From assembly GCA_001592145.1 (NCBI GenBank), contig BCWJ01000002.1:186001-250000 (forward strand): DNA of 64,000 bases. Direction: 5' to 3'. Made by a program: the position numbers and the translations under genes. The stretch is from Xylanimicrobium pachnodae JCM 13526 = NBRC 107786 (GTDB taxonomy: Bacteria > Actinomycetota > Actinomycetes > Actinomycetales > Cellulomonadaceae). How positions within the stretch are numbered: the first letter of the stretch is position 1; every line of letters begins with the position of its first letter. The notes under the pieces were generated by a model, which saw nothing but the letters and a program-made list of their open reading frames with translations, made no database searches and was not told the DNA's origin. Shown in pieces: positions 51,505 to 58,100 of this stretch.

Positions 51505-51526
51505 CCCTCCGCTGCGCCTCCGGCTT
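51505..51526 (-). repeat. 22-bp direct repeat, copy at the ffh stop codon
   Basis: The second copy begins at the last base of the ffh TAA stop and extends 3'. The two copies are 92 bases apart. A related GGAGCGGAGCCGCAGG sequence lies between them. Confidence 0.7.
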
Positions 51527-53121
51527 TAGCCGAGGAGCTTGTCGAAGCCTTCCGGCAGCTTCAGCGACGACAGGTCCACGTCGTCCTTCTTCGGGGCGCC
51601 GACGCCGAACGCCGAACCCGCCGGCGCCGCCGGGCCGCCGCCCAACGCCTTCTCGAGCATCTCGCGCTCCTGCTGGGCGCGCTTGGCGGGGTTGCCCGAC
51701 TTGCCCTTGACCTTCTTCTTCGGCGCCTGCCGCGCCCCCGCGCGCTTCCCCGCACCCGGCATGCCCGGCATCTGCGGCATCCCCGGCACACCGCCGCCGC
51801 GCGACATCTGCCGCATCATCTTCTGCGCGGCCTCGAACCGCTCCAGGAGCTGGTTGACCGCCGTCGTCGTCGTGCCGGAGCCGCGGGCGATGCGCGCGCG
51901 GCGCGACCCGTTGATGATCTTGGGGTTCTCGCGCTCCCCCGGCGTCATCGAATGGATGATCGCCTCGATGCGATCCACCTCGCGCTCGTCGAAGTTCTCG
52001 AGCTGCTCGCGCATCTGACCCATGCCCGGCAGCATGCCGAGCATCTTCTTCATCGAGCCGAGCTTCTTCATCTGCTGCATCTGCACCAGGAAGTCGGCCA
52101 GCGAGAAGTCCTGCCCCGAGGCGACCTTGGCCGCCATCTTCTCGGCCTGCTCGGCGTCGAAGGCGCGCTCGGCCTGCTCGATGAGGGTGAGCACGTCGCC
52201 CATGTCGAGGATGCGCCCGGCCATGCGGTCCGGGTGGAACACCTCGAAGTCCGTGAGCTTCTCGCCCGTGGACGCGAACATGATCGGGCGCCCGGTCACC
52301 TTCGCGACGGAGAGTGCCGCGCCACCGCGGGCGTCGCCGTCCAGCTTGGACAGGACGACGCCGGTGAAGTCGACGCCCTCCAGGAACGCCGACGCCGTCG
52401 CCACCGCGTCCTGACCGATCATCGCGTCGATGACGAACAGGACCTCGTCGGGGTTGATCGCGGCGCGGATGTCCGCCGCCTGCTGCATCAGCACCGCGTC
52501 GACGCCGAGGCGGCCCGCGGTGTCCACGATGACGACGTCGTGCTGCTTGTCCCGGGCGAACGCCACACCGTCGCGCGCGACGCCCACCGGGTCGCCGATC
52601 ACCACGTCCACGTCCACGGAACCCTGGTTGCCCGGGTGCGGCGCGAACACGGGTACCCCGGCGCGCTCGGCCACCACGGAGAGCTGCGTGACCGCGTTGG
52701 GCCGCTGCAGGTCCGCGGCCACGAGAATCGGCGTGTGCCCCTGCGCCCTGAGCGCGTGCGCGAGCTTGCCGGCCAGCGTCGTCTTACCGGCGCCCTGGAG
52801 ACCCGCGAGCATGATGACCGTGGGCGGCACCTTGGCGAGCTGCAGGGTGCGGGTGGCACCGCCGAGGATCTCGACGAGCTCCTCGTTGACGATCTTGACG
52901 ACCTGCTGCGCCGGGTTGAGCGCCCCGGAGACCTCCGCGCCCAGCGCCCGCTCGCGGATCGCTGCCGTGAACTCGCGCACCACGGGCACGGCGACGTCGG
53001 CGTCCAGCAGCGCGCGCCGGATCTCGCGCACGGTGGCGTCGATGTCCGCCTCGGACAGACGCCCCCGGCCGCGGAGGTTCTTGAAGGTCGCGGTGAGCCG
53101 ATCCGACAGGGAGTTGAACAC
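51526..53121 (-). CDS. ffh: Signal recognition particle protein Ffh (SRP54)
   Basis: Ffh binds signal sequences on ribosomes and hands them to FtsY at the membrane. The 531-residue GTPase has the N domain (1-85), G domain with GLQGAGKTTLAGKLA, DTAGRL and TKLDGDARGG, and the Met-rich M domain (QMQQMKKLGSMKKMLG, NGSRRARIARGSG). The C-terminal tail is Gly/Pro/Lys-rich, ending LKLPEGFDKLLG. The start is GTG 53121, with AAGGA nine bases upstream. Confidence 0.97.
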   Translation of the reverse strand: MFNSLSDRLTATFKNLRGRGRLSEADIDATVREIRRALLDADVAVPVVREFTAAIRERALGAEVSGALNPAQQVVKIVNEELVEILGGATRTLQLAKVPPTVIMLAGLQGAGKTTLAGKLAHALRAQGHTPILVAADLQRPNAVTQLSVVAERAGVPVFAPHPGNQGSVDVDVVIGDPVGVARDGVAFARDKQHDVVIVDTAGRLGVDAVLMQQAADIRAAINPDEVLFVIDAMIGQDAVATASAFLEGVDFTGVVLSKLDGDARGGAALSVAKVTGRPIMFASTGEKLTDFEVFHPDRMAGRILDMGDVLTLIEQAERAFDAEQAEKMAAKVASGQDFSLADFLVQMQQMKKLGSMKKMLGMLPGMGQMREQLENFDEREVDRIEAIIHSMTPGERENPKIINGSRRARIARGSGTTTTAVNQLLERFEAAQKMMRQMSRGGGVPGMPQMPGMPGAGKRAGARQAPKKKVKGKSGNPAKRAQQEREMLEKALGGGPAAPAGSAFGVGAPKKDDVDLSSLKLPEGFDKLLG

Positions 53122-53176
53122 CAGTCACGGTCCTTGAGGTCTTCGACAGCAGTCGTACGGGTGGGAACGGTGACCC

Positions 53177-53182
53177 AGACTA
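53177..53182 (-). promoter_or_regulatory. Candidate -10 box of ffh
   Basis: TAGTCT followed by GGGTCAC, the same seven bases that follow the TAATCT candidate at dxr. It lies 55 bases before the ffh start. Confidence 0.4.
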
Positions 53183-53203
53183 CCGGGCGGCCCCGGCGGC
53201 CCG

Positions 53204-54985
53204 TCAGCCGTGGGCAGCCACCGCGCGCGCCCGCGCCACCAGGTCGTCGACGAGTCGCGCCCGCCAGGCGGTCCACCCCGGCGTCGTCCCCAGGCCAGAC
53301 GTTCCCAGGCTCGACGCGTCGGCCTCCGTCAGTGCGCGCAGCTCGGCCAGCAGCGCGGTGCGGTGCCCGACGGCGTCGAGCAGCCGGTGCACCGTCGCCG
53401 GGTCCTGCGGGTCGGCCGACGTGGCGAGCTCGGCGAGCAGCAGGTGGTGTCGCACCAGCACGGTCACGTCGGCGGCGACGCCCGGGGCCACACCCATCCT
53501 GGCGAGCACGGCGGGCACGATGCGGGCGCCCTCGACGGCATGGTCCGGGTGCTGCGCCCCGCGCCTCTTGCCGAGGTCGTGGAACAGCGCCGCGAGCAGC
53601 AGCACCTCGGGGCGCACCGCGTCCGGGTCGGGCAGGGCGCGCCGCACCGCGCCGGCCTGCACCACCGTCTCGATCAGGTGCCGGTCCACGGTGTGCCGGT
53701 GGATCGCCGCGCGCTGCGGGCGGTTGCGCACCCCCGCCCACTCGGGGATCCATCGCGTGACCACGCCGGCCAGGTCGAGGGCCTCCCACACCGGTACCTG
53801 CGCCGGCCCGGAGCCCAGCAGCTCGAGGAACCCCTCGCGCGCGGCGGCGGGCCACGGTTGCGGCAGCACAGCCCCCGCAGCGAGCGATCCGACGGTCACC
53901 GGCGACAGCGGCAGGCCGGTCCTGGCCGCGGTCGCGGCCGCGCGTACCGCCAGCAGCGCGTCCGTGCGCGGATCGGCGTCGGCGGCCAGCGCGAGCTCGC
54001 CGTCGTGCTCCACCAGGCCGTCTCCCATCGAGCGCAGGAGCGGCGCGGTGCGGCGTCCGCGCACCAGCAGGGTGCGCGGTGGCCGCGCGGGACGCGCCGC
54101 CCGGCGGGCCCGCCGCACGGTGGAGTCGAGCGCGTACGCGATCTCACGGCCCGCCTCGGCCAGCGAGGCGAGCAGCTCGTCGGGGTCCTCGACGCCGCAC
54201 CGCCCGGCCACCTCGTCGAGATCGGCCAGCAGCAGCCGGGTGGTTCTCCGGCCCGTGACCACCTGCACGGCGTCGCGCACGTCGAGCAGGTGCCCGTACG
54301 CGCGGTCCACCGCCCCGTGCGGGCGGTCGGTGAGCCACGTGGCCGCGAGCGCCTGGAGCAGGACGGCGTCACGGAGCCCGCCGCGCGCCTCCTTGAGGTC
54401 GGGCTCGATCAGGTAGACCAGCTCGCCGGAGCGTTCGGCACGCTGGTGGGCCGATGCCAGCAGGTCGGGCAGCCGCCGCCGGGCCGCGGCCCGCCAGTCG
54501 GTGAGGATCGCGGACGCCGCCTGGCGCACCACCGACGTGTCCCCGGCGACGGGCCGCACGTCGAGCCAGCCGGAGACCGCGGGGACGTCTGCCGCCGCGA
54601 CCTGGCGCGCCTGGCCGACCGAGCGGACCGCGTGGTCGACGTCGACCTTCGAGTCCCACAGCGGGTACCAGAGACGTTCGGCCACGCGGGCCAGCTCCGC
54701 GGCCTCGTGGGTGTGACCGTCGTGCACGAGCACCAGGTCGATGTCGGAGCGCGGCCCCAGGTCACCGCGGGCGAGGCTGCCGACGGCGGCCAGCGCGATA
54801 CCCCGCGGGTCGGTGCCCTCGGTGGCCTGCTCGTAGAGCACGCCCAACCGGTCGGTGACGAGCCGGACCAGCGCCGCGCGGCGAGTGGCACCGTCGCGTC
54901 CGGGGCCGGTCAGGTCCGCGGCCATGCCGGTGAGCTCGTCGAGCAGGCCGGCGACGGGAGAGGGGCCGGGCGTCGAGCTCGTCAT
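53204..54985 (-). CDS. glnD: PII uridylyltransferase GlnD lacking ACT domains
   Basis: GlnD modifies and demodifies the PII protein in response to glutamine. The 593-residue product has the nucleotidyltransferase motif [20 protein letters not shown] (about 70-89), the central helical region ([18 protein letters not shown]) and an HD domain with [24 protein letters not shown] and [11 protein letters not shown]. It ends soon after, at [21 protein letters not shown], exactly where two C-terminal ACT domains normally begin. Only 82 bases separate its stop from ffh, so the ACT part is not hidden by a frameshift. In actinobacteria GlnD often adenylylates PII. The ATG at 54985 has GGAG ten bases upstream; GTG 54991 is an alternative. 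A strong hairpin separates it from glnB. Confidence 0.92.
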
Positions 54986-55113: not shown

Positions 55114-56768
<1,655 letters not shown>

Positions 56769-56933: not shown

Positions 56934-58100
56934 TCACTCCCCGAGGATGCCGTCGACGAACTGGGTCGCGTCGAACGGGGCCAGGTCGTCCGGGCCCTCG
57001 CCCAGGCCCACGAGCTTGACCGGCACGCCCAGCTCGCGCTGCACCGCGACGACGATGCCGCCCTTGGCGGTGCCGTCCAGCTTGGTGAGCACGATGCCTG
57101 TCACGCCCGCGACCTCGCCGAACACGCGCGCCTGCTGCAGGCCGTTCTGGCCCGTGGTGGCGTCGAGCACCAGCAGCACCTCGGTCAGTGCCGCCTCGCG
57201 CGTGATCACGCGCGTGATCTTGCCCAGCTCGTCCATCAGCCCGGCCTTGTTCTGCAACCGGCCCGCGGTGTCGACGACGACGACGTCGGCGCCCTCCGCC
57301 TTGCCCTGCTTGACGGCGTCGAACGCCACGGCGGCCGGGTCAGCGCCGTCCCGGTCGGCGCGCACCGTGACGACGCCCACGCGCGAGCCCCACGTCTGGA
57401 GCTGGTCCGCGGCGGCCGCCCGGAACGTGTCCGCGGCGCCCAGCACCACGTGGTCGCCGTCGGCGACGAGCACGCGCGCCAGCTTGCCCACCGTCGTCGT
57501 CTTGCCCGTGCCGTTCACCCCGACCACGAGGACCACGCCCGGCGTGCCCGGCTCCGCGCCGTGCGTGTGCACGGTGCGGTCCAGGTCGGCGCCCACCAGG
57601 GCGATCAGCTCCTCACGCAGCATGTCCCGCACATCCGCCGGGTCGCTGACCGCCTCGACCCGCACCCGGGTGCGCAACGCGTCGATGAGCTCGCCGGCCG
57701 GGCCGGCGCCGACGTCGGCGAGCAGCAGCGACTCCTCGAGCTCGTCCCAGTCGTCCTCGGTGAGGTGGTCCCGGGACAGCACGGCCAGCAGGCGGGCGCC
57801 CAGCGGCGAACCCGACCGGGCGAGCCGGTCACGCAGCCGCACCAGCCGGCCCGCGGCGGGTGCCGGGCGCTCGAGCGCGGGGGGCGCTTCCTCGACGGTA
57901 GGCGCTTGCGCGGAGACGGGAGGCTGCGCGGGCGCTGGCGTCCCGTCGGCGGTCGGTGCAGCGGTACCGGTCGGTGCGGGCGGCGTCGTCGGCGGTGGCA
58001 CCTGCCGACCGCGGCGCAGTCGGGGCGCGACCAGCGCCGCGACCACCGCGAGCACGATGACGACCAGGACGGGGATCAACCAGGGAAGAACGTCGCTCAC
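56934..58100 (-). CDS. ftsY: Signal recognition particle receptor FtsY
   Basis: FtsY is the membrane receptor for Ffh. The 388-residue protein begins with a transmembrane helix (VLPWLIPVLVVIVLAVVAAL), as in other actinobacteria, then a Pro/Ala-rich linker (about 35-80) and the NG domain with GVNGTGKTTTVGKLA, DTAGRLQNKAGLMDEL and TKLDGTAKGG. The GTG at 58100 has GGGAG upstream. smc and ftsY are often neighbours, as here. Confidence 0.96.
   Translation of the reverse strand: MSDVLPWLIPVLVVIVLAVVAALVAPRLRRGRQVPPPTTPPAPTGTAAPTADGTPAPAQPPVSAQAPTVEEAPPALERPAPAAGRLVRLRDRLARSGSPLGARLLAVLSRDHLTEDDWDELEESLLLADVGAGPAGELIDALRTRVRVEAVSDPADVRDMLREELIALVGADLDRTVHTHGAEPGTPGVVLVVGVNGTGKTTTVGKLARVLVADGDHVVLGAADTFRAAAADQLQTWGSRVGVVTVRADRDGADPAAVAFDAVKQGKAEGADVVVVDTAGRLQNKAGLMDELGKITRVITREAALTEVLLVLDATTGQNGLQQARVFGEVAGVTGIVLTKLDGTAKGGIVVAVQRELGVPVKLVGLGEGPDDLAPFDATQFVDGILGE

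Follow-up and report, generated by a model that had tools for sequence, protein, structure and literature searches.

A short GlnD without ACT domains, conserved across an actinobacterial branch with Cellulomonas and Demequina among its members

The glnD gene of Xylanimicrobium pachnodae JCM 13526, located in a window of 64,000 nucleotides (the whole stretch of DNA that was analysed), encodes a GlnD that ends shortly after its HD domain and has no ACT domains. The truncation characterises a clade and not a single genome, which goes beyond what a sequence-only reading of this one stretch had in view. The preferred interpretation, with a probability of about two in three, is that the protein is a working GlnK-modifying enzyme whose ACT-ACT part was lost in the ancestor of the clade, and that it leaves glutamine unread and follows nitrogen through the ligands of PII. 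In textbooks, GlnD is the protein that senses glutamine for bacterial nitrogen control. A conserved GlnD with both catalytic sites and no sensor would separate the glutamine input (GlnD) from the 2-oxoglutarate input (PII) without any engineering, and would be a natural test of the need for, and the worth of, glutamine sensing.

The window carries amtB, glnK, glnD and ffh in a row, all in one direction on the minus strand (Table 1). Translation of the glnD frame from 54985 to 53204 gives 593 codons followed by a stop, exactly the coordinates of the sequence-only reading. Pfam matches are found for the nucleotidyltransferase domain (PF01909, 30.4 bits, cut-off 21), the GlnD_UR_UTase region (PF08335, 47.3 bits, cut-off 21) and the HD domain (PF01966, 31.1 bits, cut-off 22), and no Pfam ACT domain is found in the 593 amino acids. 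The GlnD model NF002895 aligns at positions 20-566 of 782 and TIGR01693 at positions 25-588 of 850, so that the last 215-260 or so model positions have no counterpart in the protein. Because ffh starts at 53121, 82 bases past the glnD stop, there is no room for an ACT coding sequence. The earlier claim that the protein ends just past the HD region, and that no ACT part fits before ffh, is thus borne out. The scores for both models lie below the curated cut-offs (NF002895 601 versus 631 bits, TIGR01693 378 versus 519 bits), as expected when a quarter of the protein is missing. Some other short GlnDs exceed 631 bits for NF002895 and many fall below, so automatic pipelines may misname them. The glnK gene is the single PII gene found in the genome. 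Upstream of amtB there is a frame of 388 amino acids (56934-58100) which we take to resemble ftsY; with this frame on one side and ffh on the other, the nitrogen operon would be placed between both GTPases of the signal recognition pathway.

Table 1. Positions in the window of glnD, its regions and the neighbouring genes.
Feature	Position	Strand	Remarks
glnD	53204..54985	minus	593 aa; predicted PII (GlnK) nucleotidyltransferase / nucleotidyl-removing enzyme without ACT domains
GlnD nucleotidyltransferase region, residues ~55-135	54581..54823	minus	motif GSLARGD...SDIDL; PF01909 best stretch residues 62-98; residue conservation
GlnD_UR_UTase region, best stretch residues 213-271	54173..54349	minus	Pfam PF08335
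GlnD HD domain, residues 434-552	53330..53686	minus	presumed nucleotidyl-removing site; Pfam PF01966; H436, H469, D470, H482, H514 kept
glnD stop to ffh start	53122..53203	minus	82 bases; ~215 ACT-ACT codons here in full-length relatives
glnK	55114..55455	minus	T-loop tyrosine is residue 52 (Tyr51 equivalent); Pfam
amtB, ammonium transporter	55452..56768	minus	Pfam
ffh, signal recognition particle GTPase	51526..53121	minus	downstream neighbour, sets the end of glnD; Pfam

A scan of named genomes gave 78 loci for comparison with the window protein. In 75 of these the gene is short, with a stop at most 34 residues beyond the point where its alignment with the window protein ends; the 75 include L055, where the alignment ended early and the stop lies 50 residues past its end, and L086, where only the C-terminal part is in view. 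The glnD of L070 is cut off by a contig end, and the GlnD of Corynebacterium (L089) has 181 further residues, unlike the 75 short loci. A frameshift divides glnD into two frames in Luteimicrobium album (L082) and in L192 of family f13, and it may be real or come from sequencing. Recurrence of the same stop in 75 of 78 named relatives means that the truncation cannot be blamed on a single faulty assembly; a longer frame hidden by a sequencing error, which the sequence-only reading had named as grounds for giving up its claim, was not found, and the proposed comparison with relatives gave the same truncation. Two records among these loci deserve a remark on their names. In L020, recorded as Sphaerisporangium cinnabarinum ATCC 31213, the C-terminus of GlnD is much like that of Cellulosimicrobium funkei L024, which suggests a misnamed genome. 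L040, recorded as Cellulosimicrobium cellulans DE0111, is likely misnamed too, since its GlnD and that of Cellulomonas hominis L041 are identical over their last 30 residues.

When further genomes are included, 158 loci were read, with 119 short and 38 long-tailed forms plus L082. The stop is in view for 118 of the 119 short loci; L127 and L169 are one gene, as are L102 and L168 among the long-tailed loci. The ffh gene follows in 106 of the 118 short loci at a median distance of 38 bases, always within 300 bases except in one case at 719, and no ffh match was found in the other 12 within the 279-1605 downstream bases examined. For the 38 long-tailed loci, ffh lies within about 310 bases in 33 and at 925-995 bases in two, with none in view downstream in three. 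This mostly kept order of glnD and ffh suggests that the ACT part was lost in place.

The short form is widespread in the order. A sample of 396 genomes from the order contains 380 with a match to the GlnD model (E <= 0.001), weak in many cases. A hand count gives 129 genomes with a short GlnD, of which 56 were read to the stop and 73 were judged from the end of the model match, 97 with a full-length GlnD, one of which is split across two contigs, and three called neither (G129, G168 and G185). When 14 doubtful loci of this census were read, 13 were short and that of G185 was cut by a contig end. All genomes are short in f1, the family code of the window itself (35/35), and in f9 (34/34), which joins Demequina L079 in the core tree. 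Family f13 has 22 short forms among 24 genomes, the other two being without a strong GlnD match, and the strong matches that could be determined are short in f3 (9), f4 (16), f12 (2) and f20 (10). Family f11 (33 genomes) consists of 26 full-length forms, one short form and six genomes without a strong match. Outside this order, the strong matches listed for a phylum sample of 396 genomes lie in frames long enough to hold a tail, reach the end of the model, or are split or interrupted. Within the order, f6, f7 and f19, all three well sampled, have absent or weak GlnD matches, so the whole enzyme may be missing there.

A phylogenetic tree was constructed from 72 catalytic cores, tails excluded, using a quick method and containing several long branches (L146, L089, L141 and L144 among them). 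The tree has 44 short rows, and 43 of them form one clade with SH-aLRT 100. The remaining short row, L127 from f11, is placed among long-tailed f11 rows with support 98, and the minimum number of changes on the tree is two. Forcing all short rows into one clade costs 13 log units with a p-AU of 0.058; a single clade is therefore not firmly rejected, and a second loss is probable but not proven. The case for it also rests on the family code common to the short G314 and the 26 full-length f11 genomes. On this tree, the history is one old loss of the ACT domains and probably a second, independent one.

A missing tail or a partner protein was searched for with an ACT-ACT tail model built from six relatives. 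In the window's genome, where all 104 candidates were scored, only one weak match appeared (E 3e-4). It was rejected as a detached tail, as it belongs to an 814-residue frame (587 residues read) that matches RelA/SpoT. Pfam gives ten ACT matches in this genome. Nine of them sit in frames whose Pfam domains point to IlvN, RelA, homoserine dehydrogenase, aspartokinase (two), PurU, IlvA, SerA and PheA, and the tenth, below the cut-off, is in a frame partly overlapping that of pheA. The separate ACT protein that had been suggested as a point to check did not turn up in the form of a GlnD-type tail in the window's genome. In a search over 54 genomes, with at most 55 candidates scored per genome and these a subset in most, all 10 full-length controls gave the tail (E 5e-109 to 2e-13), and a detached tail was not found in any of the 37 genomes with a short GlnD, where the best match covers about 54 of 222 positions at E 1e-4. 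A further seven genomes, whose GlnD matches are absent or weak, resemble the short ones in this search.

Nor was any tail-like sequence found around the stops of the short glnD genes in six frames over about 1 kb (best E 1.8 without filters); the same tail model detects a tail in every one of the 47 full-length loci, of which 38 went into building it and 9 did not. A fossil ACT part past the stop was considered for f13, in which some matches crossed an in-frame stop to model position 597-670, and was ruled out by five loci of this family (L151-L155), in which the HD domain is simply followed by a stop. A regular-expression search for DRxGL-like motifs, meant to find degenerate ACT loops as intermediates, missed plainly homologous tails such as that of L172 and carries no claim here.

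Residue conservation was compared in 118 short GlnDs, including that of the window and leaving out L070, L082 and L086. The transferase aspartates D81 and D83 of the GS...SDxD motif are kept in 117 of the 117 short rows with a letter there. In the HD domain, H436 and H469 are kept in 118/118 rows and D470, H482 and H514 in 117/118 each; some of the conserved histidines and the aspartate presumably bind metal. H431 and H513 are variable in short and full forms alike. Together with the Pfam matches, these counts agree with the earlier statement that the nucleotidyltransferase and HD motifs are intact. The core is under purifying selection: 73 named short genes give 327 close pairs, and for 60 of these the dN/dS ratios are 0.15 for the transferase, 0.10 for the middle and 0.18 for the HD part. 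The T-loop tyrosine of GlnK is kept in all 112 readable short loci (of the 119, five have no glnK in view and two are unreadable at the tyrosine). An AlphaFold2 model of the window GlnD has a mean pLDDT of 95, with values of 62-70 in blocks 1-10, 301-310 and 561-570 and of 96-97 in the last helix.

Seven clade-specific residue positions are listed in the core. Asp115 (window 54641-54643) is found two residues ahead of the conserved transferase Asp117. Of 115 short rows, 102 carry Asp at this position, and 35 of 47 full rows carry Arg, a sequence difference that could have a bearing on the choice of nucleotide.

Unlike the transferase domain, the HD domain is clearly looser in its conservation in the short forms than in the full ones. 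Mean pairwise identity in the short forms is 0.655 for the transferase, 0.657 for the middle and 0.592 for the HD domain, and in the full forms 0.580, 0.550 and 0.604 respectively. A second comparison, matched for identity of the middle region, was made on tree rows from the same order, where pairs share rows and the two groups differ in make-up. In three bins of middle identity, HD identity in short versus full pairs is 0.47 versus 0.61, 0.54 versus 0.67 and 0.54 versus 0.70, whereas transferase identity differs by 0.01-0.03 in the same bins; in the bin 0.55-0.65, for instance, HD identity is 0.54 versus 0.67 and transferase identity 0.605 versus 0.615. The drop in the HD domain is mainly at residues 456-470, 516-530 and 546-560, and a drop of similar size is seen outside it at 291-305. 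The loosening fits the loss of a surface that contacted the ACT domains, but it also fits a weaker demand on the removing activity. It might point to the surface where the sensor acted.

Under nitrogen limitation, the GlnD of other actinobacteria adenylylates GlnK on its T-loop tyrosine, as described in the available parts of PMC4285133 and PMC3612183. In proteobacteria, glutamine lowers the addition and raises the removal of the nucleotide, and the ACT domains are thought to bind glutamine (excerpts of PMC4285133 and PMC3173338). PII itself senses 2-oxoglutarate and ATP/ADP (PMC4285133, in part). Against this background, the ACT-ACT sensor would have been lost in place from the stretch that separates the HD domain from ffh, in the ancestor of an actinobacterial branch including Cellulomonas, Cellulosimicrobium, Oerskovia, Sanguibacter and Demequina. 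The short GlnD would still modify GlnK at its T-loop tyrosine with a nucleotide (AMP, by analogy), and the HD domain, deprived of the ACT partner it would formerly have contacted, would remove this nucleotide. With the ACT domains missing, the glutamine branch should be missing too. GlnK is the substrate of both reactions, so its ligand state would be the remaining input, and the balance of addition and removal would be set by 2-oxoglutarate and ATP/ADP, perhaps also by sequestration at AmtB, and no longer by glutamine. The loss of glutamine sensing that the sequence-only reading proposed follows from the role ascribed to GlnD ACT domains in the consulted portions of PMC4285133 and PMC3173338. 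Its further claim, that the enzyme must be regulated another way or sense nitrogen through PII alone, is more likely than the other readings but goes further than the sequence, for unregulated or weakened activity is also possible. Annotation as GlnD in these bacteria is in any case no warrant for glutamine-responsive control. A bolder version, which we hold tentatively and at slightly less than even odds, adds that throughout the branch the PII cycle remains reversible without a glutamine input and responds solely to the 2-oxoglutarate/ATP/ADP state of GlnK, that the HD domain bears the footprint of the former ACT contact, and that a genus of f11 (g99) reached the ACT-less state on its own, so that the glutamine sensor of GlnD would be a removable module.

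It is also conceivable, though unlikely, that the short enzyme lacks regulation or is half-used: it would modify GlnK at fixed rates or with hardly any removal, if any, and GlnK would be controlled through its ligands and through expression of the operon. The lower conservation of the HD domain in short than in full forms at matched divergence would suit this explanation, as would its dN/dS, the highest of the three core parts, and the three families with absent or weak GlnD matches. The literature also lends it some weight: several studied PII complexes do not need modification (sections of PMC4285133), and the text available from PMC3612183 reports that deletion of glnD causes little growth defect in Streptomyces coelicolor and Mycobacterium tuberculosis and that GlnK modification is dispensable for growth in mycobacteria and S. 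coelicolor. However, the HD dN/dS is well below 1 and the tested HD positions are kept in nearly every row, which argues that the site is not decaying. A related caution concerns the ancestral state, since the signal of even full-length GlnD is called unverified in mycobacteria (PMC3612183, in part), and what was lost may thus not have been a working glutamine sensor.

Glutamine control might instead have moved to an unrelated partner protein or to an altered core site acting as the sensor. We regard this as quite improbable: a few core positions do differ by clade, such as Asp115 beside Asp117, but the separate short form L127 has His at this position, and the ACT matches in the window's genome sit in frames that read as other enzymes (the tenth being below the cut-off), with no GlnD-type partner among them. 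That a sequencing or assembly error conceals a further stretch of the glnD frame, or an ACT gene at another place, has next to nothing in its favour. The window's genome is a draft in 79 contigs and glnD frameshifts do occur in L082 and L192, but the conservation of the stop refutes this explanation, and ffh as the next gene in most complete short loci and the lack of a tail-like frame past the stop on either strand also stand against it. A working enzyme that follows nitrogen through the ligands of GlnK remains the preferred reading.

Among known systems, the window protein is closest to the ACT-bearing GlnD of actinobacteria (NF002895 / PRK03381), of which SCO5585 of S. coelicolor and Rv2918 of M. 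tuberculosis are members named in the partly available literature. These full-length proteins have the same order of core domains, the same GlnK tyrosine and about 33-57% identity to the window protein, and in 33 of 38 loci tested their genes likewise precede ffh, but they carry two C-terminal ACT domains (about 215 residues) which the window GlnD lacks. The Corynebacterium GlnD shares the catalytic core and the downstream ffh, and differs in that its additional residues form a short, diverged tail. The UTase/UR GlnD (TIGR01693) has the nucleotidyltransferase and HD architecture in common with the window GlnD, which differs in having no ACT domains; the actinobacterial enzymes adenylylate rather than uridylylate, according to portions of PMC4285133 and PMC3612183. 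From its sequence, the protein has the catalytic core of a GlnD and lacks the pair of ACT domains needed to complete the family definition; it is best described as a GlnD variant devoid of ACT domains. No report of a naturally ACT-less GlnD was seen in the titles and abstract starts of the open-access matches listed, a set that mostly excludes subscription literature.

Searches by sequence and by fold (Foldseek) found no solved GlnD structure. The best solved matches are chains of tRNA-processing enzyme / poly A polymerase (3wfo-3wfs) and pieces of GlnE, the glutamine synthetase adenylyltransferase (3k7d and 1v4a). GlnE has a related fold (Foldseek E 1e-4 to 8e-4), and 3k7d is also a weak match in sequence, but GlnE has another substrate and another domain order. 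The window's genome has a separate frame of 1070 residues with two PF08335 matches (G000:C6), which is taken as glnE.
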